From NCBI RefSeq assembly GCF_900177345.1, contig NZ_FWZT01000028.1, positions 1-64,000 of the forward strand: DNA of 64,000 bases, read 5' to 3'. This DNA is from Pseudobacteriovorax antillogorgiicola (GTDB lineage Bacteria > Bdellovibrionota_B > Oligoflexia > Oligoflexales > Oligoflexaceae). Made by a program: the position numbers and the translations under genes. Below, in pieces: positions 14,224 to 57,808 of this stretch. How positions within the stretch are numbered: the stretch's first letter is position 1; each line of letters starts with the position of its first letter. The notes under the pieces are model-generated. The model had not been told where the DNA came from. It saw only the letters and a program-made list of their open reading frames with translations, and did not search any database.

Positions 14224-15774
14224 ATGCTGCAGGTGAGACAGGCGAAACCCCAAGACATCGTCGCTATTCGTGACTTGGCTAAAAAGTGTTATCCTACTGA
14301 GCCTCCATACACCCTGGCGATGCTTCGGGGTCACATCAACCACTTCCCCGAGGGTCAGTTTGTTTGTGAATACGAAGGTAAGATCGTCGGCTACTGCGCC
14401 ACATTCATTGTATCCGGCAATGTTGCCCTGCACCCTCACACTTGGATTGAAGTAAGCGGTGGTGGCTTCGCCAGTACCCACGACCCTAAGGGCAATTACC
14501 TTTATGGCATGGAAGTCTGTGTGGACACCAGTTACAGGCACCTCCGCATCGGTAAGCGCCTTTATAACGCTCGGAAGAAACTCTGCCAGTACCTACGGCT
14601 TGAAGGCATCATTTTCGGTGGTCGAATTCCCGGCTATGGCCGCCGCGAAAAGTCTGTGGAAAGCCCTGAAGAGTATGTCGAGCTTGTCAAGCAACGGAAG
14701 TTTCGAGACACCGTGGTCAATTTTCAGCTCAGACAAGGCTTCGAATTTAGGGGGATTTTGCCAGGCTATCACCCTGATGATCGGGAGTCTCGTGGCTATG
14801 CAACTCTTATGGTATGGCGCAATCCAGAGATCGAGCCTGGTACGCCACGAACCTTGGACGATGAAAGCACCCGCAGTCAACGGCTGCACAAAAGAGTCCG
14901 CGTAGCAACGGTTCAGTACGGCCAACGATCCTTGGATTCCTTTGAAACTTTTAAAAAGTATGTTGAATACTTTGTGGATGTGGTTGCCTCTTACGAAGCA
15001 GATTTTGTGACCTTTCCAGAGTTATTCACAGTTCAACTGCTTTCAATCGATAACAAGGCTGATCTCACCCCGGCTCAAGCCATGGAAACGCTAACTCGCT
15101 ATACCGAGCCGTTTAAAGAGTTCATGCTAGAACTAGCAATTCGCTACAACATCAACATCATTGGCGGCTCCCACCCCACCAAAACCAACGATAGCAACGA
15201 TAGCAACGAAGTTTATAATGTTTGCTACGTGTTCCTCCGCCAAGGTGAGATCTATGAACAGTATAAAATTCACCCTACCCCAGACGAACGCTATTGGTGG
15301 AATATTAGAGGGGGCCATGAGGTAAGCGTTATTCCCACAGACTGCGGGCCTATCGGAGTCTTGATCTGCTATGACTCCGAGTTTCCCGAGTTGGGCCGTC
15401 ACCTGATCAATCAAGGTGCAAAGTTGCTATTTGTGCCATTTTGCACGGACGAACGGCAAAGCTACCTGCGCGTCCGCTACTGTGCTCAAGCCCGTGCTGT
15501 GGAGAACCAATGTTTTGTGGTGCTATCTGGCAACGTAGGAAACTTGCCGGGGGTTCCCAACATGGATATTCAATATGGGCAAAGCTGTATCTTAACCCCC
15601 TGTGACTTTAGTTTTGCTCGTGATGGCATTGCAGCGGATACTACACCTAATGTGGAGACTGTTGCCATGGCTGACCTTCGCTTTGATGACCTTACTTATG
15701 CTAGGAACAGCGGCACGGTGCAGAACCTTAAAAACAGGCGCCACGATCTTTATTCGATCCGTTGGAAAAAGTAA
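14224..15774 (+). CDS. GNAT acetyltransferase / carbon-nitrogen hydrolase fusion
   Basis: A 516-residue bifunctional protein. Residues 1-210 form a GNAT acyltransferase domain with the acetyl-CoA loop region around YRHLRIGKRLYNAR. Residues 225-510 form a nitrilase-superfamily domain with the full catalytic triad: Glu266 (TFPELF), Lys348 (YKIHPTPDE) and Cys382 (LICYDSEFPE). This fusion is a recurrent bacterial architecture whose substrate is not established. An amidase that releases an amine, paired with an acyltransferase that modifies it, is plausible. The start follows GGAAGG. It ends just before a strong terminator. Confidence 0.9.
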   Translation: MLQVRQAKPQDIVAIRDLAKKCYPTEPPYTLAMLRGHINHFPEGQFVCEYEGKIVGYCATFIVSGNVALHPHTWIEVSGGGFASTHDPKGNYLYGMEVCVDTSYRHLRIGKRLYNARKKLCQYLRLEGIIFGGRIPGYGRREKSVESPEEYVELVKQRKFRDTVVNFQLRQGFEFRGILPGYHPDDRESRGYATLMVWRNPEIEPGTPRTLDDESTRSQRLHKRVRVATVQYGQRSLDSFETFKKYVEYFVDVVASYEADFVTFPELFTVQLLSIDNKADLTPAQAMETLTRYTEPFKEFMLELAIRYNINIIGGSHPTKTNDSNDSNEVYNVCYVFLRQGEIYEQYKIHPTPDERYWWNIRGGHEVSVIPTDCGPIGVLICYDSEFPELGRHLINQGAKLLFVPFCTDERQSYLRVRYCAQARAVENQCFVVLSGNVGNLPGVPNMDIQYGQSCILTPCDFSFARDGIAADTTPNVETVAMADLRFDDLTYARNSGTVQNLKNRRHDLYSIRWKK

Positions 15775-31570: not shown

Positions 31571-32656
31571 ATGACCAAGAGTTATTTTGCAAGCTTAAAC
31601 TATAGCCTTGCAAATGAAGATGCCAGCGTTGAAACTCAAGTCCTCCCCCTAGAGCAAGGTCATGTGGCAGTGGTTGCTGGCTCTGGCAGTCGTGCAATTC
31701 CTCTCCTTAGCCGCAAGCCTCAGATCCTTAGTTGTTACGACGTAAGTCAGGAGCAGCTCTATCTCTGCGAACTTAGGGTGGAGGCCGTTCGGACCCTTGA
31801 TTACGCGGATTATCTTGAATTTCTGGGATACGAGCCTTGTCCCCCAAACAAACGCATGAGGCTTTTTTCAAGGTTGTCCCTTTCCAGTGATGCAAAAGCT
31901 TACCTTCATCAACTATTTGAGCAGCACGGGTGGCACTCCATTCTCTACGAAGGTCGCTGGGAAAAGTTCATGTTAACGATGAATAAAGTGGTAAGAAAGT
32001 TTGTTGGATCTGCAGCGGATGAACTTTTTGAGCAAAATGATCTCGCTGATCAGCAACGGTTTATAGAAAGTAGTTTCCCGCAAAATCGATTTCGAGCAGC
32101 AGTATTTCTTCTAGGGAATAGCCTTTTTTATAATAGCATTCTATATCGGGGTAGCTTCCCTGAAAAGAATATCCCCGATAGCTATTACCGATTCTATTTG
32201 AAGGTTTTCCAAAGGCTTTTTTCAGAGCATTATGCAAGGCAAAACTTCTACCTCAACCTCTTATTTCTTGGCCGCATTGGCTTTCCCTGCGCCCGCCCTC
32301 CTGAAGCCCAGGAAAGTGTATATTCCTTAGCTCAAAATACTTTGAAAGACTGCGAGGTACGCTACAAGCTCGGTTGCATGATCAGCCAGGCTTCGAAAAT
32401 TGATAAGCCCTTGGACTATGTATCTCTTTCCAATGTTCCGTCCTACCTGAAACCTCCCATGGAGCAATCGTTCCTTCAGGCCTTAAAAGCAGGGCTTAGC
32501 GAGCATGCAACGGTTATCTTTCGTAGTTATATCCGGATTCCATTCCGCCTTGATACCCAAGGTTTCGAATGCCGCACCCAAACTTACCAAAGCTTGCTTC
32601 GAGAGGAGCAGACACAAATGTATTTCATCGACATCTATAAGAGGCTTGGCTCATGA
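31571..32656 (+). CDS. BtaA/DUF3419-like aminocarboxypropyl transferase
   Basis: A 361-residue protein of the DUF3419 family, whose characterised member BtaA moves the 3-amino-3-carboxypropyl group of SAM onto diacylglycerol in betaine-lipid synthesis. Matching features are the SAM-binding VVAGSGSRAIPLL, CYDVSQEQLYLCELRVEA, the DYLEFLGY helix and the late YVSLSNVPSYL. A betaine lipid would also need a BtaB N-methyltransferase; a methyltransferase lies at the far end of the cluster. The substrate here is unknown. It overlaps the next gene by four bases (ATGA). Confidence 0.78.
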   Translation: MTKSYFASLNYSLANEDASVETQVLPLEQGHVAVVAGSGSRAIPLLSRKPQILSCYDVSQEQLYLCELRVEAVRTLDYADYLEFLGYEPCPPNKRMRLFSRLSLSSDAKAYLHQLFEQHGWHSILYEGRWEKFMLTMNKVVRKFVGSAADELFEQNDLADQQRFIESSFPQNRFRAAVFLLGNSLFYNSILYRGSFPEKNIPDSYYRFYLKVFQRLFSEHYARQNFYLNLLFLGRIGFPCARPPEAQESVYSLAQNTLKDCEVRYKLGCMISQASKIDKPLDYVSLSNVPSYLKPPMEQSFLQALKAGLSEHATVIFRSYIRIPFRLDTQGFECRTQTYQSLLREEQTQMYFIDIYKRLGS

Positions 32657-35358
32657 CCACAGAGCAAATATTTTCCCCTCATGACCCCCAGGCTAGCCAA
32701 ATCGATCTTGCTGGTGGCAAAGGCTTCCACCTTTCATGGCTGGTTAGAAACGGTTTTCGCGTCCCTCCATTTATTATACTTGGATCATCGCTTTTCGACG
32801 AACTTCTCCGGAGCAATCATTGCCAAAATCAGTTTGATGAGATGCTGGAGAAAATAAACGAGTCTCAAAGCGATAGTGCCATGCTTAGCGATATTCGTCG
32901 TCTCATCGAAGGCCTTCAATGGTCTGTCGACTCTGAGCACCTACTTCTCGCCAAACTTAGCCTGATTGGCTTTGAAGACGGAGCCCCTTACGCTGTGCGT
33001 TCATCGATTTCTGATGAAGATTCGGCGGAAGCCTCGTTTGCCGGGCAAATGGACTCCTTCCTTTTTCAGAAAAGTCTCAGTGCTATCAAGCAATCCTATT
33101 TGAAAACCATGGCCAGCATGTTCTCTGATCATGCTATTGCCTATAGAAAGCAACATCAGCGGCCGATCCATACAATCAAGGGCGCAGCAATCGTGCAGAC
33201 AATGATCGACAGTGAACGCTCTGGAGTCATGTTCACAGCCCACCCCATTACAGGCTCACGGCGCACATTGTTGATCACGTCTGTTTTTGGACAGGGTGAG
33301 GGTTTGGTTTCAGGGATTTGCAATGCGGATGAGTTCAGTATCGATCAAGACGGAACTGAACGAGAACGTAAGATTGCAAATAAAGACATCATGCTAGTCG
33401 CAGCGCCGGATATGGGCACCCAAGAGCAAGCTGTTCATACGGAGCTACAGGACTTACCGAGCCTTTCTCGTGAGCAGATCCAAGAGCTTAGGGAGCTAGG
33501 GCTGAGCATTTCTGGCTTGAAACGATCGCCACAAGATATTGAGTTCGCCATTGCTGATAGCAAGGTTTTCATTCTGCAAACACGCCCCATCACACACCTG
33601 CCACCGCCGCAAAAGCCTCTTGGTCACGAGATTGTTTGGGATAATTCGAACATTCAAGAGAGTTACTGCGGAGTGACAACCCCACTCACATTCAGCCATG
33701 CAAACCGTGCTTATAAATCAGTCTACACCCAAACCCTGAGAATATTGGGAACTCCTGAATCCGTGATTCAAGAGAAAGACAAAGGCTTATCGAATATGCT
33801 GGGCCTAATTCATGGCCGTGTCTACTACAATATCAACCATTGGTACGAGGGGCTCAGCCTACTGCCTTCTTTCAAAACCAATAAGGCTGACATGGAGAAG
33901 ATGATGGGGCTTCAAGACCCCGTCGACTTTGTTGAGGATGCCGAGTTGAGCTTGTGGGAGAAGATCAAGAAGCTGCCGCAAATGATCTTACTCCTTATGT
34001 CCTTCCTACGAAATTTTGCCCGAATCGACCACCTTGTAGCAGATTTTCTAAGCCATTTTCACGAGCAGTACAAATCAATCGATCGGCCAAACCTTCACCG
34101 TTTGGAAGTTTCCGAGCTATTTAAGCTGGTTCAGCAGCTAACGAAAAACCTCTTAGAGCAATGGCATACGCCCATCATCAACGATTTTTTCGTTATGATG
34201 ACCAATGGCAAGGTTCATCGCCACTTGAAGAAGGCCGGCTTTGATAATCCAGATTTAATCCAAAATAACCTCATGTCTGGCGAACCAGATGTGGAATCCA
34301 CTGAACCTACCAAATTTCTTATCCGCCTTGCGGAAAAAATCAGGCAAGGCTCAGCGCGAGACTTATTTGAGACTTGGGACGACCCAGACCTATGGGAGGT
34401 ATTTCGGAGCCGAGAGCCGGAGCTATTCAAAGAATGTGAGATCTATATCGAGCTATACGGCGATCGTTGCATGGGTGAGCTAAAACTAGAATCAATCAGT
34501 TTGCGCCAAGACCCTAGCTTCATGTTCGCTATTCTCCGTAACTTTATCGCAAAACCAGAGCTTAGCCTGGAGGCGATCGAAGCCAAAGAGTTGAAAATGC
34601 GCCAAGAGGCAGAACAAGAAGCCTTCCACCGGATTCGCCATAAACGAGGATCACGGGCGCTGCGAAAATTCAAGAAGGATCTTCAGAACCTTCGCAAAGC
34701 AGTTAAATATCGTGAAAATATGCGTTTCTCTCGAACGCGCTCTTTCGGTCTGTTCCGCGATCTGTACAACGAAATTGGTCAACAATTGGCATTTTATGGA
34801 CTTCTGGAAGATGGCCGGGATGTTTTTTATCTGACCGTTGATGAGCTTGATGCCTATCACGAGGGTCGGAGCGTGCATACGGAGCTGAAATCTCTCGTGG
34901 CCGCACGAAAACCTGAATGGCAGCAATATGAAGCAAAGGACCTGCCTCACCATTTCAAAACATGGGGTCCAGTCTATCATCACAATGACTATCGTTATGA
35001 ATCAGAGCACAGCGCAGCTCAAGAACAATCCGGGGATTGCTTAAAAGGTATTGGCTGCTATCCAGGCATTGTCCAAAACAAGGTGCGGAAGATTTTTTCA
35101 CCACAAGACGAACTAAATCTCGATGGTCAAATCCTATGCACTGTTCGCACAGATCCTGGCTGGACTCCCCTTTTCCCATCAGCTTCTGGAATTCTTGTAG
35201 AACGAGGCTCGACTTTATCACACAGTGCAGTCATTGCCCGCGAACTCGGAATTCCTGCTATCGTTGGCATCCCTCAACTAACTGAGAAGCTAGCTGACGG
35301 TCAAGAGATTAAGATGGATGGGGCTCAAGGCCTGATTCATATGGAGGTCGAGCCTTGA
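32653..35358 (+). CDS. PEP-synthase-like dikinase
   Basis: A 901-residue enzyme of the PEP synthase / pyruvate phosphate dikinase / rifampicin phosphotransferase superfamily. The N-terminal ATP-grasp region (about 1-320) has GGKGFHLSWLVRNGFRVP, Arg116 in YAVRSSISDEDSAE, MFTAHPITG and ILQTRPI. The C-terminal swivelling domain has the phospho-carrying His857 in GSTLSHSAVIARELGIPA. The roughly 450 residues between them resemble neither the PEP synthase nor the pyruvate-binding barrel and probably form the acceptor pocket, as in rifampicin phosphotransferase. ATP would phosphorylate His857, and the phosphate is then passed to an unknown substrate. It overlaps genes on both sides. Confidence 0.82.
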   Translation: MTTEQIFSPHDPQASQIDLAGGKGFHLSWLVRNGFRVPPFIILGSSLFDELLRSNHCQNQFDEMLEKINESQSDSAMLSDIRRLIEGLQWSVDSEHLLLAKLSLIGFEDGAPYAVRSSISDEDSAEASFAGQMDSFLFQKSLSAIKQSYLKTMASMFSDHAIAYRKQHQRPIHTIKGAAIVQTMIDSERSGVMFTAHPITGSRRTLLITSVFGQGEGLVSGICNADEFSIDQDGTERERKIANKDIMLVAAPDMGTQEQAVHTELQDLPSLSREQIQELRELGLSISGLKRSPQDIEFAIADSKVFILQTRPITHLPPPQKPLGHEIVWDNSNIQESYCGVTTPLTFSHANRAYKSVYTQTLRILGTPESVIQEKDKGLSNMLGLIHGRVYYNINHWYEGLSLLPSFKTNKADMEKMMGLQDPVDFVEDAELSLWEKIKKLPQMILLLMSFLRNFARIDHLVADFLSHFHEQYKSIDRPNLHRLEVSELFKLVQQLTKNLLEQWHTPIINDFFVMMTNGKVHRHLKKAGFDNPDLIQNNLMSGEPDVESTEPTKFLIRLAEKIRQGSARDLFETWDDPDLWEVFRSREPELFKECEIYIELYGDRCMGELKLESISLRQDPSFMFAILRNFIAKPELSLEAIEAKELKMRQEAEQEAFHRIRHKRGSRALRKFKKDLQNLRKAVKYRENMRFSRTRSFGLFRDLYNEIGQQLAFYGLLEDGRDVFYLTVDELDAYHEGRSVHTELKSLVAARKPEWQQYEAKDLPHHFKTWGPVYHHNDYRYESEHSAAQEQSGDCLKGIGCYPGIVQNKVRKIFSPQDELNLDGQILCTVRTDPGWTPLFPSASGILVERGSTLSHSAVIARELGIPAIVGIPQLTEKLADGQEIKMDGAQGLIHMEVEP

Positions 35359-36932
35359 GTCAGAATTTTCGCTTTGTCGACATGATATGGAGTCACGTCC
35401 AAGAGCAACCAGAGAGGCTCGCTCTTTCCATCCCACAGTCTTGGGATGACAAGCAAGTGACAGCCAGCAACAATCTCAGCTACGGCGAGCTAGGCTCAAG
35501 AGTAGCTGAGCTGATTCAGGGGCTAAAGCGCGAGGGTATTGGCCCTGGTGATCGGGTGATTTTACTCTTTCCAGTAACTGTGGATATGATATGCCTGATG
35601 ATCGCCTTATTTGCTAGAGGTGCAGTACCGACCTTCGTCGATCCAGGGATGGGATTGCGCCGAGCCTTTCAAGCTATAAAAGGCAGCAAGGCCAAGGCCA
35701 TTGTCACCTTGCCTGGTATCGTTCGGTGGCGGCGATTCATTCCAGCACTAAGATCCATCAAGGCTTATCCTTGGCGGAAAAACTCTCAGCAAGCACTCGA
35801 AGCTCTCTTGCTGCCTGGTGCCACTGACTGGGAAATCGATCGAACCCGAGAGGATGGGGACGAAGGCATCATCACCTTCACATCAGGTACCAGTGGCAGG
35901 CCCAAAGCTGCAAACCGAACTAGGGCTATCCTTCAAGGCCAGCATGAAGCTCTCAATAGCGTCTGGACACCCGCACCGGATGAAGTCGCCATGACTTGCT
36001 TTCCCATATCAAGTCTCTTTTATATTTGCCACGGGGTCACCTGCATTTTCCCAGCGTTGGATCTTGCCAAGCCAGGTCGAGCGAAGGGCAAGGTCATCGT
36101 CCAACAGATGCTCGATGACCAAGTGACGAGCCTCTTCGGAGCCCCTGCATTTCTAGAATCGGTTTTTGACGAGATGACACCGACCCATGAAATAAAGAAA
36201 CTGCGAACAGTTGTGACAGGGGGAGCACCAACCCCAACAAGACTAGCTCAAAAAATCATCTCGACTTTACCTGAAAGTCAAAATCTGATTCTTTACGGCT
36301 CCACCGAAGCTGAACCGATCGCTTATACATCAATGGAATCTGTGATCCAAGAGAAATTAGCAGGCTACTTGGTTGGAACTATCGTAGACGCTGCAACTGT
36401 AAGACTAATCCCTAAGGCCACCAGCCACCAGCCCTCCGAGGCTGAGCTTCGACAGATCCAAGCTGCTCCCGGTGAAGTGGGCGAGCTTTGGGTTCGTGGC
36501 CCACATGTAGTGGAAGAGTACTTAAATCATCCTGAAGCCAACCGCCTGACCAAAATCAGAAGCCAGGAAGGCTACCTATGGCATCGCACCGGCGACCTCG
36601 CCTACCGAGATCTACGGGGGCGACTATGTCTCGTGGGACGGGCGAAAGATGAGTTGCGAAATAGCGACGGAAACCTGATCTTTCCGTTTCCTATAGAAGA
36701 AGAGATCGACCAAATCCCGGGAGTCCAAAGGTCTGCCTTGCTTGAAGTGCAAGGTGTAATCACCCTAGTTTTCGAACCAAAAGCTACTGACGAGGCCTTG
36801 AAACCCAAGATACTTTCCATTTTAGAGCGACGAAATATTAATGCTAAGATAGTGGTCTTAGACCAAATTCCAGTCGATCGACGCCACAATAGCAAGATCG
36901 ATCGAAACCAAGTGCGTCGTCTGATAAAATAA
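35355..36932 (+). CDS. OleC-like acyl-AMP ligase
   Basis: A 525-residue member of the ANL superfamily. Motifs are FTSGTSGRPKAANRT (P-loop-like A3), LYGSTEAEPIAYTS (A5), WHRTGDLAYRD and LCLVGRAKDEL (A7/A8). The C-terminal PVDRRHNSKIDR carries the A10 Lys. The PVDxRHNxKI form and the early FVDPGMG are shared with OleC, which closes beta-hydroxy acids to beta-lactones by adenylation; a fatty-acyl-AMP or CoA ligase is the alternative. The start is a TTG within TTGA, overlapping the dikinase stop. It follows the dikinase and precedes the HMG-CoA reductase fusion. Confidence 0.83.
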   Translation: MSQNFRFVDMIWSHVQEQPERLALSIPQSWDDKQVTASNNLSYGELGSRVAELIQGLKREGIGPGDRVILLFPVTVDMICLMIALFARGAVPTFVDPGMGLRRAFQAIKGSKAKAIVTLPGIVRWRRFIPALRSIKAYPWRKNSQQALEALLLPGATDWEIDRTREDGDEGIITFTSGTSGRPKAANRTRAILQGQHEALNSVWTPAPDEVAMTCFPISSLFYICHGVTCIFPALDLAKPGRAKGKVIVQQMLDDQVTSLFGAPAFLESVFDEMTPTHEIKKLRTVVTGGAPTPTRLAQKIISTLPESQNLILYGSTEAEPIAYTSMESVIQEKLAGYLVGTIVDAATVRLIPKATSHQPSEAELRQIQAAPGEVGELWVRGPHVVEEYLNHPEANRLTKIRSQEGYLWHRTGDLAYRDLRGRLCLVGRAKDELRNSDGNLIFPFPIEEEIDQIPGVQRSALLEVQGVITLVFEPKATDEALKPKILSILERRNINAKIVVLDQIPVDRRHNSKIDRNQVRRLIK

Positions 36933-36949: not shown

Positions 36950-39676
36950 ATGAAAAAATCCAGAACTGAATCCCGCTTGTTCTATCACCGTGGTCGTCGG
37001 CCTCGGGTCTTATTTGCTTTAGGAAGCCGGATTCTAACAGGAGAGCTTGCAGATTGGAGTCGCATCGGCTTGGGTGTTTTCGTGCCCTTTGAGGATGAGC
37101 GCAGCTTAGACTACGATCCCATCGTGCCCAAACTTTATGTTCACAAGACAGATGACGACTATTGTATCCATGGTCTCGAAGTTGTTTATATCGAGTATGA
37201 TAATATCACTAGCCGATTAAGACTCGGTTTTCAAGCCAAGCATGAAGAGGCTCTTAAATCCCTCCATGATGTAATGCTACGAATCACGGAGCAAGGAAGT
37301 GCCAAGTCTCAAGAGCACAAGCTCTTCCAACCTGATCGATTGCCTTCATCATCGCGGGCCAACCCATTCAAGCAAGAGGCCATTCAAGAACGCCATGATT
37401 GGCTTGAGGAGAAGTGGAACGATCGTTTCCCTCACCTTCGGGATAATCACCTAAACCCAGAAGACCTCGCTGGCAATATTGAAAACTATATCGGAGCTGT
37501 GCAGATTCCCGTAGGGATCGCCGGTCCAGTTCATGTCAAGGGGCTCTATACCCACGCTCATATTCCCGTTCCCATCGCAACAACGGAAGGCGCATTAGTC
37601 AGTTCCATTACAAGGGGAGCAAGGGCGTGTGCTCTCGCTGGTGGTATTAGAACCCATGTCATCCACCAAACCATGCTAAGGGCTCCTAGTTTTCACTTCA
37701 GACACATGCAGGCGTCTGTGGGCTTCGCCCACTGGCTCGATGGCAACCGTGAGGCAGTCATTGCACAAGCGGAAAGCGTTTCCAGTGTTGCAAAGGTCTC
37801 CGACATTCAGCACTTTATTTTTGGTGATACGGTCCATGTAAAATTTTTCTATACTACTGGGGATGCAGCCGGGCAAAACATGACAACGGCCTGCACTTTT
37901 ATGGCTTGCGAATGGATTGCGCAGCAAATTAGCAAGCTATCCACCATGGGCTTTATTAAATATAATATTGAAGGCAATCTTTCGGGTGATAAGAAAGTTA
38001 ATCACCAAAATTTTATTCAAGGCCGCGGGATTGCTGCAGTAGCTGAATGCCTGATCCCAGAAGATATCCTTAAAAAAGTATTGAAAGTCGAACTGCACGA
38101 TATGATCGAAGGCTGGATGGCTGCCAATGTTGGTGCTCGACAGATTGGAATGGTGGGAGCCAATATCAACTTTGCCAATGTTGTGGGAGGGATATTTGCA
38201 GCTACTGGCCAAGACATCGCCAGCGTCCATGAATCCTCTATTGGTATTTTGAATATGAAAGAGAAGGATCAAGCCCTGTATATCTGCGCTTACCTTCCCT
38301 CCTTAGTTATTGGAACTGTCGGCGGCGGTACCGCTCTGCCCACTCAACAAGAGTGTCTGAAAATGATGGACTGTGCGGGCACAGATCGAGCGTTTCGGAT
38401 GGCAGAAATCATTGCCGCGACCTGCCTCGCCCTCGATTTATCCACAGGAGCAGCGATCGCAGCAGGACAATTTGTATCGGCCCATGAGAAGCTTGGTCGT
38501 AACCGACCCAAGGCATACTTTAAGCTATCGGAAGTCAGTGCCGAATTTTTTAATAGCGTGCTGCCATTGCCCAACGATGTCATTACCCACTGCGAACAGG
38601 TCGAGTTTTCCAACAATAGTGGCGCTACCGCCAGCCTTATGTCGGAAAAACGGCAGGGCTCGAAAGGATTGTTTAAGTTCCGTCTCAATACCCAATCTGG
38701 GGAAGAAGTACCTGTTGTGATCAAGCTCAAAAGCCCTGACAATGAGCTTGTGGAACTTGGGCTCAATCTTATTCGCCTCTCTGGAGAAGATCGCCTACCT
38801 GGATTATTTGAGCTGCACTATCGCATTTTTGGTTTCGAACACAGCCACCTCCGCGAGATAGAAATTTTTCAAGGGCTTCACCAGGACATAAGGCAGTATC
38901 TGCCTAAAACTTTGGGCTGCATCAGCATGCCTGAGCGTGAGCTTTATGCTATTGCCATGGAAGACATGTCGTCTTTTGAGTTATTGAACTCGGTAAACGA
39001 AATGAACTCATGGACTGAAGATCACATCCAGGCTTGCCTGAAGGCTATGGCGCATATTCATAGCAAACATCTAAATCAACCAGACTCACTTCCCCCGGGA
39101 CATATCGAGCACTTTGATGCGAGTCACATCATTGATGGCCGAACCTTCTTAGACGAGCTAACCCGCTACGTAGGTCAACGTTACCCTGATATTATGGGAG
39201 ACCTCAGCCAGCACATGCGAGCATCTCTGGAGCGTATCCATATTTTCGGGCGCATCATGCAGAGCTACCATCAAACACTCACCCACGGTGACTTCAACCC
39301 TCGGAATCTTTGCTTCAGGCGTTCCGAAGGAGAGCTAAACCTTTGCCTATTCGATTGGGAACTAGCACAGTTTCACAACCCCCAGAGAGATCTTATTGAG
39401 TTTCTTGGCTTTGTCATTAGCCCGGATCGCCCTATAGAAGATTGGCAGTCTTATGTTGACGATTATTGTAGGTATCTTGAGTCATATATCCAATTCGATT
39501 TGGATCGTCCTAAGTTTGCCGAGCTTATGTACTACAACGGTCTTGTATTTGCGCTTACGAGACTCAACCTTTACTGCCTGGCTCACAACATCGCTCGTTT
39601 CCCATTTCTAGAGAGACTCTGTCAGTCCGTCAGTCGATTTATCCTAGAGAATCCTCAGCGTAAAGATTGGAGTTGA
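36950..39676 (+). CDS. PilZ - HMG-CoA reductase - APH kinase fusion
   Basis: A 908-residue three-part protein. Residues 1-115 resemble a PilZ c-di-GMP-binding domain, with an Arg-rich start (HRGRRPRV) and DWSRIG matching DxSxxG. Residues about 140-540 form an HMG-CoA reductase with its catalytic set: Glu213 (ATTEGALVSS), Lys348 (SGDKKVN), Asp422 (TGQDIAS), His512 (SAHEKLGRN), plus IPVGIAGP and GTVGGGTALPT. Residues about 590-900 form an aminoglycoside-phosphotransferase-like kinase with His779-Gly-Asp781 in THGDFNPRN and Asp802 in LFDWE. The reductase would turn a 3-hydroxy-3-methylglutaryl-type thioester into an alcohol, and the kinase could phosphorylate it. No other mevalonate gene is nearby. 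It is cotranscribed with the ligase 17 bp upstream. Confidence 0.9.
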   Translation: MKKSRTESRLFYHRGRRPRVLFALGSRILTGELADWSRIGLGVFVPFEDERSLDYDPIVPKLYVHKTDDDYCIHGLEVVYIEYDNITSRLRLGFQAKHEEALKSLHDVMLRITEQGSAKSQEHKLFQPDRLPSSSRANPFKQEAIQERHDWLEEKWNDRFPHLRDNHLNPEDLAGNIENYIGAVQIPVGIAGPVHVKGLYTHAHIPVPIATTEGALVSSITRGARACALAGGIRTHVIHQTMLRAPSFHFRHMQASVGFAHWLDGNREAVIAQAESVSSVAKVSDIQHFIFGDTVHVKFFYTTGDAAGQNMTTACTFMACEWIAQQISKLSTMGFIKYNIEGNLSGDKKVNHQNFIQGRGIAAVAECLIPEDILKKVLKVELHDMIEGWMAANVGARQIGMVGANINFANVVGGIFAATGQDIASVHESSIGILNMKEKDQALYICAYLPSLVIGTVGGGTALPTQQECLKMMDCAGTDRAFRMAEIIAATCLALDLSTGAAIAAGQFVSAHEKLGRNRPKAYFKLSEVSAEFFNSVLPLPNDVITHCEQVEFSNNSGATASLMSEKRQGSKGLFKFRLNTQSGEEVPVVIKLKSPDNELVELGLNLIRLSGEDRLPGLFELHYRIFGFEHSHLREIEIFQGLHQDIRQYLPKTLGCISMPERELYAIAMEDMSSFELLNSVNEMNSWTEDHIQACLKAMAHIHSKHLNQPDSLPPGHIEHFDASHIIDGRTFLDELTRYVGQRYPDIMGDLSQHMRASLERIHIFGRIMQSYHQTLTHGDFNPRNLCFRRSEGELNLCLFDWELAQFHNPQRDLIEFLGFVISPDRPIEDWQSYVDDYCRYLESYIQFDLDRPKFAELMYYNGLVFALTRLNLYCLAHNIARFPFLERLCQSVSRFILENPQRKDWS

Positions 39677-43667: not shown

Positions 43668-44936
43668 TTAATAGGCGAGCTGAATTTCCAGGTAGTAGTA
43701 ATCCTGATCTGCGTAAAGCCCGGCAAGACTATCAACCGGCCCTTCTAGATCAACTACCCCACCCTCAAATAGTATATGATCTATGAGTTTGTAGTTCAGT
43801 TTTAGAATTTTTATCCAGTCCCCTTCATCGAGTCCATATTGAGCAATAACATGAATGTCCAAGTCGCTCTTAAGAAAAGACTGCTGGATCGCCATCGATG
43901 CAGTACTCCTGCTATCAAGGGCTTTTGTCAGGGATTCGATCTCCTGATCCCATTCGATCCGGGCTCCTTCAAGTACTAGAGAGAAGTCTTGCCACTGGTA
44001 GTCAAGGCCAATTGCGGATGCCAGCCACTGATCATCAAAACTTTCGATTAAGCCAATGGGATTCAGCTGATACCGCCGGGCTTCACCCCAGGCAAGATCG
44101 CCCTTTAGAACCCAAGAGCCGAGGCTCACATCAAAATCAATGCTATGATAACGGAGAGGACTCGGCTTACTTGCCAAGGCCTGATGGTCGTTGATACGCC
44201 ATTGATCATAACCTGAGTATGAGCCAAGCCTCATGCCTAAAGCTCCGAGTCGAAATCCAATCCGGCCACCGATACCGCGGTATCGCTCATCCTGAGCATA
44301 TGGTTTTGCTTCCGGTAAGAGTCTGATAATTGGTGAAAACTGTCCCCACGGAGACCCTTCATCGGGTAGCAAAGTTGCAGTGGTGAACGGGCGATAGAAG
44401 CCTTCCGCAAACGCCCCTCCCCAAGTACCGCGCACCATCACAGCCGGCGCACCTCGATTCAATGTTGCCAAGCTTGGCGAAACCCCTTGGCTTAAATCTT
44501 GAGCACTCTGTCGATTGCTAGGGCTGGTAAAGTCCATCACTCCCCAAGGAAGCCGCTGCTGGCCGACTTTCAGATCCCAATGCGTCGAGCGCCACGTGAT
44601 TGCAGCCTCGTGAATAAAATCTTGCCAGCTCGGTGTGGACGTCTTTTGATAGCGAAGCTCACCATCCCAATGAGCTGACGCATGCGCACCCAGCTTGGCA
44701 TCGGCACTGGTTTTAAGGGACCCGAGAACATCCTGCTTATCTCGCATTTGCCGAACACCAGTTTTCCAGCCCAGCTTTATCAGAGTGTCAGAGGCTACTG
44801 GTTCCGACGGTTTTGTGGATTCCATGGACAGCAAGGGCATACCTTCCAAGTCAGGATCGGAAGCTCCAAAAGCCACTGATGAAAAAGTCAAACAACTGAA
44901 TAAGGCATAGATGTAAAGTTTGAATTTACAGAGCAC
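43668..44936 (-). CDS. outer-membrane beta-barrel of lipid export operon
   Basis: A 422-residue exported protein with a signal peptide ending VAFGA at residue 25. The rest consists of many short amphipathic strands (WDGELRYQK, WRSTHWDLKVGQQRLPWG, GGRIGFRLGALGMRLGSYSG) and it ends in YYLEIQLAY with a terminal aromatic, as in porin-like and DUF1302-type barrels. GQQRLPWGVMDF recalls conserved barrel turns in that group. It overlaps the LolA-like gene by 11 bases. With that gene and the divergent MMPL transporter it fits a trans-envelope lipid exporter. Confidence 0.75.
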   Translation of the reverse strand: MLCKFKLYIYALFSCLTFSSVAFGASDPDLEGMPLLSMESTKPSEPVASDTLIKLGWKTGVRQMRDKQDVLGSLKTSADAKLGAHASAHWDGELRYQKTSTPSWQDFIHEAAITWRSTHWDLKVGQQRLPWGVMDFTSPSNRQSAQDLSQGVSPSLATLNRGAPAVMVRGTWGGAFAEGFYRPFTTATLLPDEGSPWGQFSPIIRLLPEAKPYAQDERYRGIGGRIGFRLGALGMRLGSYSGYDQWRINDHQALASKPSPLRYHSIDFDVSLGSWVLKGDLAWGEARRYQLNPIGLIESFDDQWLASAIGLDYQWQDFSLVLEGARIEWDQEIESLTKALDSRSTASMAIQQSFLKSDLDIHVIAQYGLDEGDWIKILKLNYKLIDHILFEGGVVDLEGPVDSLAGLYADQDYYYLEIQLAY

Positions 44937-45699
44937 GAGTCATCCTTTCAGGAGTAAATAGCTCTATCTGAAGTTTGGCTTTAGCATCAATTTTAGTGAT
45001 TTTCACGGCGGTCACAGATCCGGTCTTTTTATTCCACATTTGTGATTGACGAGCCAGCCACTGATCTCCCGTTTTTTCACTTTTAATCAGCTTAAATACT
45101 TTATAAAGTTGATTCTTGGTATCGTAGTATTTGATTGCCTCAGCAAGATAGCTATCTTTTCGAATATAGAGCACAATTCTCTTTGCGATCGTGTTCTGCT
45201 TAGGTAGCACTTCAATTTCATAGCAATCATTCTGATCTACTTTGTGGCTGCCTAGAAGTTTTAAGGCAGCACCATTCAGATACGAACTATCAAGATCACC
45301 AAAGGTAAAGTCGCTAGCAACGAAGGGGCTCTTTTTTTGGTTATCGCCTATTCTCCTCGGCTTACCAGCTTGAGGTAAGAATAGATGCATCTGAGACTGG
45401 TCGACCTTTCTCTGCTCGCGAAATAATAACGTGGTTCCCTTTAGCTCGGAAGGCTCCATAACGCGAAGCAGGTTCGCTCGCTCCTCGCTATTTTCAAAGA
45501 CTTGCAGAGTCATCTCGCGATTTTTTTCGCGCCCCTTTCGATCACGAATTAACATGCTGAGGTTTGCCTCACCAATATGTATACCGAGAGCATTTCGTTC
45601 GGTATAGCGATCAACAATCGTCTGAGCGTTTGGTTTAGCGATTAACTGAGCGTTAGCCGAAAAAATTAAACTTACCAAAAGCCAAAGTATCCGCATCAC
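44926..45699 (-). CDS. LolA-like outer-membrane lipid carrier protein
   Basis: A 257-residue periplasmic protein with a signal peptide (MRILWLLVSLIFSANAQ). It belongs to the outer-membrane lipoprotein-sorting-like (LolA-fold) family: a VEF-like strand series with MEPSELKGTTLLF, SFVASDFTFGDLD-type motif (here FVASDFTFGDLDSSY) and the late ITKIDAKAKLQIELFTPERM. Such proteins are often encoded beside MMPL transporters and carry hydrophobic cargo across the periplasm. It lies between the UbiA gene and the barrel gene, overlapping both. Confidence 0.85.
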   Translation of the reverse strand: MMRILWLLVSLIFSANAQLIAKPNAQTIVDRYTERNALGIHIGEANLSMLIRDRKGREKNREMTLQVFENSEERANLLRVMEPSELKGTTLLFREQRKVDQSQMHLFLPQAGKPRRIGDNQKKSPFVASDFTFGDLDSSYLNGAALKLLGSHKVDQNDCYEIEVLPKQNTIAKRIVLYIRKDSYLAEAIKYYDTKNQLYKVFKLIKSEKTGDQWLARQSQMWNKKTGSVTAVKITKIDAKAKLQIELFTPERMTRAL

Positions 45700-46643
45700 A
45701 ATCCCCCAATTGTTCCCACGATAATGAGGATCAAGAAAACCACTAGGATCAAAAGACCCTGGCTATCTTCTACAGCCTTACCCTGACCATCCCCAGTTTC
45801 CTTAACAAAACCTAGTAGCTTGACGATCACCATCAGCGCTGTCAAGCCTGTAAGAGCGGCTCCCCCCCAGACAAGCCACCCAGAAGCTCGCGCCAAACAG
45901 TTGAGCAAGTAAGCCAACCCAGCAAAAAACAAGCCGTCAAGAATGAGAAGCAAAATTGCAGTGCCCGTCACTCCCAAAACCGAGGTATAGGAATCGACGC
46001 CAGAGATCTCGTCTTGAGGCGAACGGGTTTTACGAGCAACTTCGCCAATAGCACCTGTAAGAAAAACCATGAATGACAAGACGATAGCCTGGGGTCTCTG
46101 CCAAGGCAGCGCCTGGCTCGCCAAAAAAATCATCCAATAAGCTAGAGGAATCATAATGATCATGTGGGACAAGGCATAGAGAAGCAGTCGCTTTTGCAAC
46201 CATTCTCCGCAGAAAAATTCCTTAGCCATCAATAAAGACCAGACGAAGGCTATCGCCCAAGCCATAAACGCAGGGCTGTCGTATCCATAGAATGCTATAG
46301 TAATGGCAACTTGAACGAGCCAAGCCCCTGCAAACAGATATTTAAGTTCTGTTAAACTCACAACGCCACGAGCCACGGGGCGATCAGGGTGAAACTCTCG
46401 ATCGATTTCGTAGTCTTTATGCTCATCATAAATGCGAAGGAGCAGGAAGAAGCACCCTACAGCCAGCGCCATTAAGGCATCTGAGCCAAGAACTAGATGA
46501 TCCTGCCACGCTAGAGACCGTACATAGATGGCAATAGCAATATAAACGAGGGTGCTGAATATCCAATTTTTGAAAGGATACCGGGTTTTTGACCAAATCA
46601 GATAGCGGGCTAAGAGGGGTTTTTGGTTTTCGGGATGACTCAC
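45696..46643 (-). CDS. UbiA-family prenyltransferase
   Basis: A 315-residue integral membrane enzyme with about eight to nine helices. The first Asp-rich motif is in RIYDEHKDYEIDREFHPDRP, and the second is in SPQDEISGVDSYTSVLG. Both are the Mg-diphosphate sites of UbiA-type prenyltransferases, which attach polyprenyl chains to aromatic or lipid acceptors. The acceptor here is unknown. It is first in an operon with a LolA-like carrier and a barrel protein, overlapping the carrier gene by four bases. I infer that its product is what the adjacent machinery exports. Confidence 0.82.
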   Translation of the reverse strand: MSHPENQKPLLARYLIWSKTRYPFKNWIFSTLVYIAIAIYVRSLAWQDHLVLGSDALMALAVGCFFLLLRIYDEHKDYEIDREFHPDRPVARGVVSLTELKYLFAGAWLVQVAITIAFYGYDSPAFMAWAIAFVWSLLMAKEFFCGEWLQKRLLLYALSHMIIMIPLAYWMIFLASQALPWQRPQAIVLSFMVFLTGAIGEVARKTRSPQDEISGVDSYTSVLGVTGTAILLLILDGLFFAGLAYLLNCLARASGWLVWGGAALTGLTALMVIVKLLGFVKETGDGQGKAVEDSQGLLILVVFLILIIVGTIGGL

Positions 46644-46775: not shown

Positions 46776-49079
46776 ATGTTGAATAAGTCTATCGCTGCTT
46801 TGATTCGATTTCGCTGGCTTCTATTTTTAGTGTTTGCAGCTCTTGCGTTCATTCTAGGGCCATATGCACAAAAAGCATTTGTTCCTGATAACTCGATTAA
46901 AGTTTGGTTTTTAGAAGACGACCCCACGCTACTCGACTATGAACACTTTCAAGATACCTTCGGTAATGACGAGGTCTTGCTCATTCTACTTGAAAATCAA
47001 AACGCTAGCGTTTTTGACGAGGGCTTTTTTCAACGTATCGATGCTCTCAGTCAGGACTTGGAAAGCCTCGAAGGTGTCTTTCAAGTCACATCCATTGCCA
47101 ATGTACAGGATGCCTTTGATACAGAGGAGGGGATTATCTTCCGAAAGGCCTCCGAGCAGCTGAGCCTGGATGATTATCAAACCTATGCGATGGAGTCAGA
47201 CTACTTCAAAGACCGCTTGATCAACAGCAATGGCCAAAAAACACTTGTCTGGGCACAGATGGCTGCCATGGAAAATTTCGATCAAGCTAGGGATCAAGTC
47301 TTGGCTCACTGTTACGATTTGCTAGCCAAACACGGTTTCGCTGATGCTCCCCGTGGGGGCATTGGCGTCATATACAGCGCCCTCAACCTACTCACAGCTC
47401 AGGACTTAGCAACAGTAGGTGGGTTGGGTTATCTTTTAATGTTCGTATTTCTAGGATTTTCATTTCGAACAGTTCGCTATGTTCTTGCCACCCTGGTGAT
47501 TGTCAGCCTCAGCACCAGCATCACCTTAGGCCTCATGGGCTTGGCTGGGGTTCAGGTCAATATGGTAACCGTGGTGCTGCCCACGGTGATCCTAGTACTG
47601 GGGATCGCTGATGCGATTCACTTCCCAAGCACCTTTCGCAGACTGGAAATGGAACACCCCCAAAGCTCTAAGTACGAGATCGTTTTTAAATCACTACAAT
47701 CGATCTTAGTTCCATGCCTTCTAACAAGTGTGACTACAGCGGTTGGCTTTTTTGCATTATCCTCAGCTCCCATGAGTTCTGTAAGGCAGCTCGGAATCTA
47801 TGCAGGGATTGGGGTTTTGCTAGCCTTCTTACTGAGCGGGCTATTGATGTCAATCTTTTATCTGGGCCTTAAGAAGCTTAAGTCAGCCCCCGATCCTAGA
47901 GAACACTCGTTTCTTTCGAACGTCTTGGATAAAATCAAGAGCCTGGTGAAACAACGACCTCAGCTAATCAGCATCATCTGCATTCCCCTATTTCTGCTTT
48001 CCTTGATCTTAAGCGTACAACAAAACATCGACACCTACACCCTGGGCTACCTCCCTTCAGATCATTCAGTAGTTCAGGATCATGAGACGATCGAATCTCG
48101 TTGGGGCTATTACCAGCCATTTGAATTTACTCTCAGATTAAAATCCCAAGATTTCATCGAAACTGCCGATACCTTCAATCGTGTTGCTGGGTTTCAAGCA
48201 GAAGTCATGAAGCAAGATGAGATTTTTAGAAGCTTTTCGATTCTAGACATTTATCAACGACTCGCAAAAGTCATGAATATACCCACGAAATCCCCTTGGA
48301 GTGAAGAAGAGATTGCCCAGCTCAAATTCGTTCTAAATAGTCAGCACCGAGTCTGGGAACCGGATGATGATGAGTATTTAGACAACATTTTGGCCCCTGT
48401 GATCAACTTCGATCGGGACCTTCTTCGCATCACCTTTACAAGTAAGATGCTAAGCGCTCAGCAAGCAGATCAGTTAAAGAATCGGATCTTAAAAATAGGT
48501 CAGAAGTCGTTTGGAGACGACTATCTCCTCAAGCCTGCCGGTTATCCCCCCCTCTACATCAAGATCATCGACTATGCCATGGAATCACAAATTTCCAGTT
48601 TTGGTTTGGCTCTAGTCCTTATTTTTTTACTCATGATTGTTTGGCTTCGCAGTTTGAGGCTCGCTTTGATCAGTTTGATTCCAAACCTTTTTCCGGTGCT
48701 TGGTATGTTTAGCCTAATGCATCTTCTGGGAATCGATTTAGATATTGCCACAGCAACCATTGCCGCGATTGTCATGGGGGTCGCTGTGGATGATACAATC
48801 CATTTTATGTTTCGCTGGCGCGAAGGAGAGCGATTGGGGCTAGATTGGGAACAGTGCCTGGATCACAGCTTCGCTCATGCTGGTAAAGCAGCCTTGGTAA
48901 CCAGCTTGATCCTGATGGGGTCTTACCCTGTGCTACTTCTAGCCCAAGTAAAAACTGTGCAGTACTTCGGCATTCTGACAAGTGCTGCTGCATTCCTAGC
49001 CTTACTTGCCGATCTGTTTATGTTGCCATGTATTCTGAAGTTCTTTCACAAACCCCGCCCTCAGGCCCAAGAAACCTGA
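46776..49079 (+). CDS. MMPL/RND-family lipid transporter
   Basis: A 767-residue transporter with two repeats, each with one helix, a large periplasmic loop and five helices (helices near 12-35, 215-365, 405-425 and 605-755). The MMPL signature appears as VVLPTVILVLGIADAIHF in the first half and IAAIVMGVAVDDTIHFMFRW in the second; the Asp residues are the proton-relay positions. It is divergent from the UbiA operon across 132 bp. Relatives move hopanoids, mycolates or other lipids with LolA-like partners, so it is likely the motor of that export system. Confidence 0.88.
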   Translation: MLNKSIAALIRFRWLLFLVFAALAFILGPYAQKAFVPDNSIKVWFLEDDPTLLDYEHFQDTFGNDEVLLILLENQNASVFDEGFFQRIDALSQDLESLEGVFQVTSIANVQDAFDTEEGIIFRKASEQLSLDDYQTYAMESDYFKDRLINSNGQKTLVWAQMAAMENFDQARDQVLAHCYDLLAKHGFADAPRGGIGVIYSALNLLTAQDLATVGGLGYLLMFVFLGFSFRTVRYVLATLVIVSLSTSITLGLMGLAGVQVNMVTVVLPTVILVLGIADAIHFPSTFRRLEMEHPQSSKYEIVFKSLQSILVPCLLTSVTTAVGFFALSSAPMSSVRQLGIYAGIGVLLAFLLSGLLMSIFYLGLKKLKSAPDPREHSFLSNVLDKIKSLVKQRPQLISIICIPLFLLSLILSVQQNIDTYTLGYLPSDHSVVQDHETIESRWGYYQPFEFTLRLKSQDFIETADTFNRVAGFQAEVMKQDEIFRSFSILDIYQRLAKVMNIPTKSPWSEEEIAQLKFVLNSQHRVWEPDDDEYLDNILAPVINFDRDLLRITFTSKMLSAQQADQLKNRILKIGQKSFGDDYLLKPAGYPPLYIKIIDYAMESQISSFGLALVLIFLLMIVWLRSLRLALISLIPNLFPVLGMFSLMHLLGIDLDIATATIAAIVMGVAVDDTIHFMFRWREGERLGLDWEQCLDHSFAHAGKAALVTSLILMGSYPVLLLAQVKTVQYFGILTSAAAFLALLADLFMLPCILKFFHKPRPQAQET

Positions 49080-56578: not shown

Positions 56579-57808
56579 TTGAGTTCACAGGCTAAAAAAA
56601 CAGATCTACCTCCAGAGGATGAGTTTGAGAAACTCCGGAGAGAACTGAAATCTTACAAAGAACGGGAAGAGAAAGCGATCAACGATCGTACCAATCTCCA
56701 GTACCTGCTCTATACAACACGTGATATGACCGAGATCGAAAGTCTCAACGAGATGATCCAGCTGGTCTTGGAAAGACTTTACAACACCTATCGCCCATGG
56801 GGATTTGCCCTACTTATAGAAAACGCTGACCGCCCCACTGTTATCGAATATATGGGTTTTCTTGGTTTAGGCAATGATTCCAAAAGATTGGTACTCTCTC
56901 ACCATGAGATCATCACCAATGACATCGCTAAAACAGGCGGCATGAACGACGACGACATCGATTTATTCTTCGATGATGATAAAGACGATGACTTCATGTT
57001 TACTGTAGGCCCTGCTGAAACGGAAGACGATAAGAAGCCCAAGGTAGATGTGGACGAGGATACAGATAATCATAACTATGTGTATGGTAGTGATAAGGAA
57101 GCAGTCTCTAAAATCCTTGCCCCTGATGGCGATGCTGAATGGATGGTCATGCCGGGTAACATTGGAGAAGAACACGAACTAAAGGTATTTATCCGCGGCG
57201 TAACAATCGACTCAGAAACACTCGCTACCATTCGTCTATTTCTAAGCCTGGTTTCAGCATTGATTCATAACCATCTCTTGCAGAACAAGCTAGAAAAGCT
57301 AGCCAATACCGATGCGCTCACAGGGCTTGTCAATCGCGGGGGACTCGATGCCTCCATGGAGCAATACAAGCACATGGCTCGGGAGACCGATGAGTTTGTA
57401 TTTGCCATCATTGCCATTGACGTTAACGGTTTGAAGTATGTGAACGACACCTTCGGCCATGAGGCAGGTGACAAGCTGATCAATACCGTAGGTGATATCC
57501 TTAGACGCTCCTGCCGCAAAACAGATGTGATCTCTCGCTCCGGCGGCGATGAGTTCATCATTCTTTGCCCCAATACCAACTTTGAGAAAACCATCGCAAT
57601 CGTGGACCGAATTCGCAAATATGAGCAAGAGACCAAGCTCACGTTCACCCACAAAGAGACAGGGGCTACTGAGTCTGTTTCAGTTCGAATGAGTTTGGGT
57701 GTGGCTGACTCCGACGAGTTCGAGCCCAGTAAAGTTCTTGCTGAGGCAGATCATCGGGAATCACTCGATAAGCAGGAATACTACAAAACTCACAAGAAAT
57801 ACCGCTAA
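56579..57808 (+). CDS. diguanylate cyclase (GGDEF) with acidic insert
   Basis: A 409-residue cytoplasmic protein. Residues about 10-35 are a coiled coil, then a GAF-like region (about 45-240) is interrupted by a strongly acidic, Asp-rich stretch (about 120-175). The C-terminal GGDEF domain has the intact active site in SRSGGDEFIILCP, and the RxxD product-inhibition I-site (RKTD) is placed five residues upstream. It should make c-di-GMP and be feedback-inhibited. The TTG start follows AGGA. A PilZ-like domain at 37 kb suggests one c-di-GMP target in the same region. Confidence 0.88.
   Translation: MSSQAKKTDLPPEDEFEKLRRELKSYKEREEKAINDRTNLQYLLYTTRDMTEIESLNEMIQLVLERLYNTYRPWGFALLIENADRPTVIEYMGFLGLGNDSKRLVLSHHEIITNDIAKTGGMNDDDIDLFFDDDKDDDFMFTVGPAETEDDKKPKVDVDEDTDNHNYVYGSDKEAVSKILAPDGDAEWMVMPGNIGEEHELKVFIRGVTIDSETLATIRLFLSLVSALIHNHLLQNKLEKLANTDALTGLVNRGGLDASMEQYKHMARETDEFVFAIIAIDVNGLKYVNDTFGHEAGDKLINTVGDILRRSCRKTDVISRSGGDEFIILCPNTNFEKTIAIVDRIRKYEQETKLTFTHKETGATESVSVRMSLGVADSDEFEPSKVLAEADHRESLDKQEYYKTHKKYR

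Follow-up and report, generated by a model that had tools for sequence, protein, structure and literature searches.

We analyzed a 64,000-nucleotide stretch of Pseudobacteriovorax antillogorgiicola (contig NZ_FWZT01000028.1, positions 1 to 64,000; hereafter the window), in which a single reading frame at 36950–39676 of the plus strand starts with ATG and encodes a protein of 908 amino acids. The protein joins a PilZ domain (residues 1–114; 36950–37291), a reductase domain related to class I 3-hydroxy-3-methylglutaryl-CoA (HMG-CoA) reductases (HMGRs) and probably of the FcrA type (residues 144–517; 37379–38500), and a kinase domain of the APH/EcKL type (approximately residues 545–900; 38582–39649). 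HMG-CoA reductase is the target of the statins. A three-domain fusion in one frame had been proposed from the DNA letters alone (the sequence-only reading), and this was confirmed: all 908 codons are open, with neither a stop nor a frameshift between the domains, and all three domains were recovered. An AlphaFold model of the whole protein reached a mean predicted local distance difference test (pLDDT) score of 82.6, and its best PDB matches were archaeal and human HMGR structures. Since comparable fusions occur in near and far relatives (genomes G054, G036, G012, and G021, and two loci of G001) as well as at loci of many other genomes from many phyla, a frameshift, chance, or an assembly artefact could be ruled out as the origin of the fusion.

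Scanning 84,980 species genomes with an alignment of the kinase part yielded 245 related stretches; the 80 best were retrieved for analysis. Carriers of the fusion comprise Gammaproteobacteria, Desulfobacterales and other deltaproteobacterial groups, Myxococcales, and Nitrospiraceae, and also Spirochaetia, Paenibacillus, Streptomyces, and others. The resulting alignment holds 81 fusion sequences from 79 distinct contigs (L027/L050 and L028/L094 lie on the same contigs), and the catalytic residues of both reductase and kinase are retained in at least 78 of these 81 members.

The middle domain matched Pfam PF00368 (HMG-CoA reductase) over residues 144–517 with an E-value of 4e-107. All four catalytic residues of HMGR are kept, i.e., E213, K348, D422, and H512, equivalent to E559, K691, D767, and H866 of the human enzyme, as the sequence-only reading had stated. 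Among the aligned fusions, these equivalents are retained wherever the respective stretch is present, with one exception (L006, see below). The residues that bind HMG are replaced. Ser684, which touches the HMG carboxylate in the human enzyme, is replaced by an acidic residue in every aligned fusion (Glu in 60, Asp in 21; E341 in the window protein, 37970–37972), the position of human Leu862 is occupied by Phe in 81/81 (F508; 38471–38473), and the carboxylate-binding Lys is lost, with Ala at the aligned site of the window protein and a variable, mostly small or aromatic residue in the relatives. This pattern matches the signature of FcrA, a class-I-HMGR-derived reductase described in 2025 by Grossi et al., which consists of Ser684 changed to Glu or another acidic residue, a bulky residue at the Leu862 site, and loss of the HMG-binding Lys (PMC11948995). 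FcrA was shown experimentally to convert long-chain acyl-CoA (C14 or longer) to fatty alcohol; it does not use HMG-CoA and is not inhibited by simvastatin (PMC11948995). The HMG-binding Lys is numbered Lys795 in that paper (PMC11948995), which we read as Lys735, given its distance from the catalytic Asp. With the HMG-binding positions changed in the FcrA manner and the four catalytic residues kept, the signature points to an FcrA-type reductase; in a phylogenetic tree, the fusions grouped with a free copy of the window genome in one clade (98/99), separate from the canonical HMGRs of Methanothermococcus and a plant. Furthermore, the window protein scored 306 bits against the NCBIfam HMGR equivalog TIGR00533, below its cut-off of 441.8 bits. 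Judging from these residues and scores, the middle domain does not serve the mevalonate pathway. As an alternative to mevalonate formation, the sequence-only reading had offered reduction of another branched acyl-thioester; a substrate other than HMG-CoA does fit these data, and the FcrA match points to long-chain fatty acyl-CoA.

Fusion and FcrA thus have in common the class I HMGR fold, the four catalytic residues, the acidic residue at the Ser684 site, the bulky residue at the Leu862 site, the lost carboxylate-binding Lys, and an occurrence in genomes without a mevalonate pathway. They differ in their additional parts, as Lad and ACP extensions are described for FcrA and neither “kinase” nor “PilZ” occurs in the main text of the paper (PMC11948995), whereas the fusion has a C-terminal kinase, in many members an N-terminal PilZ domain, and another gene cluster. 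With class I HMGRs (human, Methanothermococcus), the fusion shares the fold and the catalytic residues (about 34–36% identity to the structure matches 6hr7 and 6hr8), but not the HMG-binding residues; it also has extra fused domains, and no mevalonate genes lie nearby. HMGR-like proteins outside the fusion were seen as well. In the window genome, a free 401-aa protein bearing the acidic FcrA-type residue is encoded on contig C5 close to a TonB-receptor-like gene (L003:1387-2592), and the Vibrio penaeicida genome, also a fusion carrier, encodes a free 424-aa protein in which Asp takes the place of Ser684 and Phe that of Leu862 (L126). A highly divergent 853-aa HMGR-like protein of G001 lies beside a 1126-aa RND-LolA-like fusion (L033:4363-10413).

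We complemented the residue analysis with a search for pathway genes. In 12 other carrier genomes, neither HMG-CoA synthase (PF01154) nor, above the cut-off of TIGR01240, diphosphomevalonate decarboxylase was detected; these are two marker families only, which a divergent mevalonate route could escape. Of these 12 carriers, 11 have an HMGR-type gene, which is the sole one in 10 genomes and accompanied by a further free copy in one. The window genome holds a mevalonate operon on another contig, with genes for a type 2 isomerase, a class II HMGR, a decarboxylase, and kinases. As the other carriers lack the pathway markers and the window genome encodes its class II HMGR elsewhere, a mevalonate role of the fusion is disfavored. 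The operon lies on contig C5 (L007), yet no PF01154 HMG-CoA synthase was found in this genome, with Lactococcus and archaeal controls positive; the gene may be missing, divergent, or located in an assembly gap. Wax synthase was not detected over cut-off in the window genome or in 9 of the 12 other carriers.

The kinase domain matched PF02958 (EcKL; E-value 4.5e-10, 39.8 bits) and PF01636 (APH; E-value 8e-9, 36 bits) over residues 637–852, with both scores above the respective cut-offs of 22 and 23.2 bits; its extent was delimited by Pfam, conserved residues, and the secondary structure of the model. HGD, FDWE, and the ATP lysine are all present, in agreement with the APH-fold kinase with intact HGD and DWE motifs read from the sequence. 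K592 (ATP Lys), D781 (catalytic Asp), N786, and D802 (DWE) are retained in 80–81 of the 81 aligned members. Searched by sequence against the PDB, the isolated window kinase gave no match; by profile, the nearest solved relative was ACAD11 (E-value 1e-6), with similarity confined to the catalytic loop. The kinase domain of ACAD11 is reported to phosphorylate 4-hydroxyacyl-CoAs (PMC11342911, PMC12440821). As this nearest solved relative acts on such a substrate, a kinase acting on a lipid hydroxyl is plausible by analogy. The fold and motifs of APH-type kinases are common to the fusion kinase, ACAD10/ACAD11, and EcKL, and ACAD11 is reportedly a lipid-hydroxyl kinase that is itself a kinase–oxidoreductase fusion. 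However, the similarity is weak, and the partner enzyme is another one. From the fusion itself, we infer that the kinase acts on the alcohol produced by the adjoining reductase. The notion that one protein reduces a thioester to a primary alcohol and then phosphorylates it survives, but not in its HMG-CoA/mevalonate version.

On its own, the N-terminal domain of the window protein did not reach significance for PilZ in Pfam (PF07238; 13 bits, E-value 0.13, cut-off 22.5), and 4 of 14 homologous N-termini did match PilZ (best E-value 4.8e-4). We therefore examined the fold by modeling and structure search. The predicted model of residues 1–139 had a pLDDT of 84.1, and its first 41 PDB matches were all PilZ, led by the cyclic di-GMP (c-di-GMP)-bound PilZ domain of YcgR (best E-value 2e-5), so that the claimed PilZ-like domain holds despite its sub-threshold Pfam score. 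Both motifs of c-di-GMP-binding PilZ domains are intact, namely RxxxR (residues 5–9; 36962–36976) and DxSxxG (residues 35–40; 37052–37069), as seen by alignment and motif scan. With both motifs present and a GGDEF-type protein, identified by eye, at 56579–57808 of the window, control of this copy by c-di-GMP is plausible. However, of 57 distinct relatives whose N-terminal domain spans at least 95 aa, only 8 retain both motifs, and some fusion relatives lack this domain altogether. The suggested c-di-GMP input may thus apply to the window copy, but judging from the motifs it is not a trait of the family.

In the window, the fusion gene is the last of a tight run of five genes on the plus strand. 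The run starts with a cytochrome P450 gene (30217–31569; assigned by Pfam), which is seldom conserved elsewhere, followed by genes for a DUF3419 protein of the BtaA family and possible head-group enzyme (31571–32656; PF11899, E-value 1e-31), a phosphoenolpyruvate (PEP)-synthase/Rph-type dikinase with swivel His857 (32653–35358), and an AMP-dependent ligase resembling fatty-acid-CoA ligases (35355–36932; Pfam, NCBIfam PRK09274-like with a score below cut-off). The dikinase gene overlaps the ligase gene, which ends 17 bases 5′ of the fusion. Farther on lie, on the minus strand, genes for a LolA-like lipid carrier (44926–45699), recurrent in Gram-negative clusters by similarity search, and for a UbiA-family transferase (PRK05951-like, 45696–46643) with the Asp-rich motif DEHKDYEID, and, on the plus strand, one for an RND-type exporter (46776–49079) that shares 38% identity with its counterpart in the G021 cluster; the names LolA-like and RND-type are our own reading. 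A PDB sequence search with the window UbiA protein gave no match. A frame for a carbon-nitrogen hydrolase (PF00795; 39667–41436) overlaps the end of the fusion and, as it was not seen in other clusters, is probably not part of the pathway.

The linkage of these genes is conserved. We considered the 54 distinct loci flanked by 6 kb or more on either side (duplicate L027/L050 counted once), which were collected through similarity to the kinase and, sharing ancestry, are not independent samples, and in which genes in GC-rich DNA may be missed, as open reading frames (ORFs) were called by length. A PEP-synthase-like gene was found near the fusion at 49/54 loci, a UbiA-type transferase at 46/54, the AMP-ligase and a cytidine diphosphate (CDP)-alcohol phosphatidyltransferase at 41/54 each, and a CarS-like gene at 38/54. 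Phosphatidylserine decarboxylase recurs in a few loci, and a fatty acid hydroxylase was seen in one. DUF3419 occurs at six distinct loci; as none of them holds CDP-alcohol or CarS genes, DUF3419 and the CDP-lipid enzymes look like alternative head-group modules. The swivel His and the ATP-site residues are conserved in the PEP-synthase-like proteins, as is the Asp-rich motif in the UbiA proteins. At two loci (L028:5829-8093 and L029:5181-7442), AMP-ligase and UbiA are themselves fused into one 754-aa protein, and several Gammaproteobacteria have CDP-alcohol transferase and CarS-like proteins fused as well.

The combination of UbiA, CarS-like, and serine-type CDP-alcohol transferase in most fusion clusters resembles archaeal ether-lipid assembly, with its UbiA-family digeranylgeranylglyceryl phosphate synthase, CarS, and archaetidylserine synthase. 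The differences are that the cluster proteins miss the curated archaeal cut-offs (31.6 of 296 bits for UbiA, 81.1 of 148 for CarS, and 71.6 of 240 for the archaetidylserine-type synthase), that the window genome has no geranylgeranylglyceryl phosphate (GGGP) synthase (PF01884), and that the chains would be derived from fatty acids. Because the partners score below cut-off and the window genome lacks GGGP synthase, the cluster is, on this evidence, not the archaeal pathway itself. Among carriers, strong PF01884 matches were confined to two Paenibacillus, with weaker ones over cut-off in two others; an archaeal GGGP synthase was consequently rejected as part of the carriers' route, being mostly absent from them. 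Bacterial ether-lipid routes (ElbD/FarA, AGPS) share with the proposed route an acyl-CoA-derived fatty alcohol as chain source. However, the families identified in the fusion clusters did not include ElbD/FarA or AGPS; these clusters instead hold an HMGR-type reductase, a fused kinase, the dikinase, and UbiA.

On balance, we favor a bifunctional lipid enzyme that feeds a conserved cluster for an unusual membrane lipid, probably of the ether type. The neighboring ligase would convert fatty acids to long-chain acyl-CoA as the probable supply for the reductase, the FcrA-type domain would reduce acyl-CoA with NADPH to fatty alcohol, and the C-terminal kinase would turn this into alkyl phosphate. 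The alkyl phosphate would be activated by the PEP-synthase-like dikinase and the activated chain transferred by the UbiA-type protein to a polar acceptor with formation of an ether bond. In most species, archaeal-type CDP-lipid enzymes would attach the head group, a step that would fall to the BtaA-like DUF3419 protein in clusters of the window type. RND and LolA-like proteins probably carry the lipid outward in Gram-negatives, and the PilZ domain of the window copy may couple the enzyme to c-di-GMP. In its most specific form, the proposal is a route with archaeal logic and fatty-acid chains, in which the dikinase yields a diphosphate or an equivalent, UbiA forms the ether bond, and c-di-GMP gates the first step through PilZ in some species including this one; we hold this form only tentatively. 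The ether step is the weakest, since UbiA enzymes are known with allylic donors: they normally require allylic diphosphates, and we know of no precedent for a saturated alkyl donor in the family. Several further points weigh against the proposed route. The dikinase has no assigned reaction, the reductase tree includes no characterized FcrA sequence and sets the fusions against two canonical class I HMGRs only, and in the window UbiA and the fusion belong to separate operons. At L103, L106, and L113, neither a PEP-synthase-like nor a UbiA gene was found within 10 kb (by crude ORF calling in GC-rich DNA). In one Pedobacter locus, the kinase part appears to be a free protein (L100:10073-11245) in the same type of cluster, with ligase, DUF3419, PEP-synthase-like, UbiA, and RND genes, and the genome gave no HMGR match. 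As the kinase thus stands there without a detectable HMGR domain, it is separable from the reductase and can, by this example, at least sometimes obtain its substrate otherwise.

Alternatively, the kinase product would be a backbone rather than a chain. A hydroxylated or condensed acyl-CoA would be reduced to a diol and phosphorylated to a glycerol-phosphate-like backbone, whose other hydroxyl UbiA would alkylate or prenylate before CarS and the CDP-alcohol transferase add the head group. The kinase would then directly yield the phosphate required by the CarS-like enzyme, ordinary prenyl diphosphates could serve UbiA, and the ACAD11 kinase reportedly acts on a hydroxyacyl-CoA. However, we identified no ketosynthase or other enzyme for a hydroxylated precursor as a recurrent neighbor in the loci examined, and BtaA-type loci lack CarS, so that we regard this explanation as unlikely. 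More improbable still is a direct activation of the alkyl phosphate by the CarS-like enzyme, giving head groups of the alkyl-phosphoserine or -ethanolamine type, with UbiA and the PEP-synthase-like protein acting elsewhere. CarS-like, serine-type CDP-alcohol transferase, and phosphatidylserine decarboxylase genes are indeed linked in Deltaproteobacteria and related loci, but the two proteins set aside by this explanation are more constant neighbors (49/54 and 46/54) than CarS (38/54).

Two other explanations were given very little weight. The sequence-only reading had mainly suggested that one protein converts HMG-CoA to mevalonate and further to mevalonate 5-phosphate, which would suit the HMGR fold, the four catalytic residues, and the order of reductase and kinase. 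This is hardly tenable with HMG-binding residues replaced family-wide (Ser684 to Glu, Lys to a small residue in the window protein), a score below the NCBI HMGR cut-off, 12 other carriers without either pathway marker, and an operon in the same genome that already provides a class II HMGR and mevalonate-kinase-type genes. Just as doubtful is a free-standing source of fatty alcohol for wax esters with a regulatory or vestigial kinase: FcrA has been tied to wax esters in some prokaryotes (PMC11948995), but wax synthase was mostly not detected over cut-off in carriers, as described above, and the kinase residues are retained in 80/81 members.

FcrA, APH kinases, and PilZ domains are each known already. 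For the fusion, its linkage to PEP-synthase-like and UbiA genes, and the alternation of head-group modules, we found no description in the open-licence literature searched, an absence that is no proof; papers on the lipocone, on a secondary lipid, and on UbiA proved to deal with other subjects. As the fusion proteins match HMGR models, they are easily mistaken for mevalonate enzymes in annotation, although the evidence says otherwise. If the proposed route is true, FcrA-type enzymes would have a role in membrane lipids, which would help explain “HMGR” genes in bacteria without a mevalonate pathway, and an uncharacterized lipid pathway would exist across bacteria ranging from Paenibacillus to Marinobacter and Photorhabdus. 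The route also bears on whether bacterial ether lipids arise in ways beyond those known.

Regarding atypical copies, the window genome has a second fusion gene on contig C22 (L006:4525-9806), which has lost the reductase residues equivalent to K691, D767, and H866 as well as the kinase Asp. An equally divergent PEP-synthase-like gene follows it, and both frames are open, as if the pair were retained for a non-catalytic role. One of the copies of G001 (L031:9739-12141) has an in-frame TGA at the catalytic motif TTEGAL, and its cluster differs, with nucleotidyltransferase, HAD phosphatase, diacylglycerol-kinase-like, and aminotransferase genes. Elsewhere in the window, by-eye reading suggests that one frame at 14224–15774 joins a GNAT acetyltransferase and a carbon-nitrogen hydrolase.

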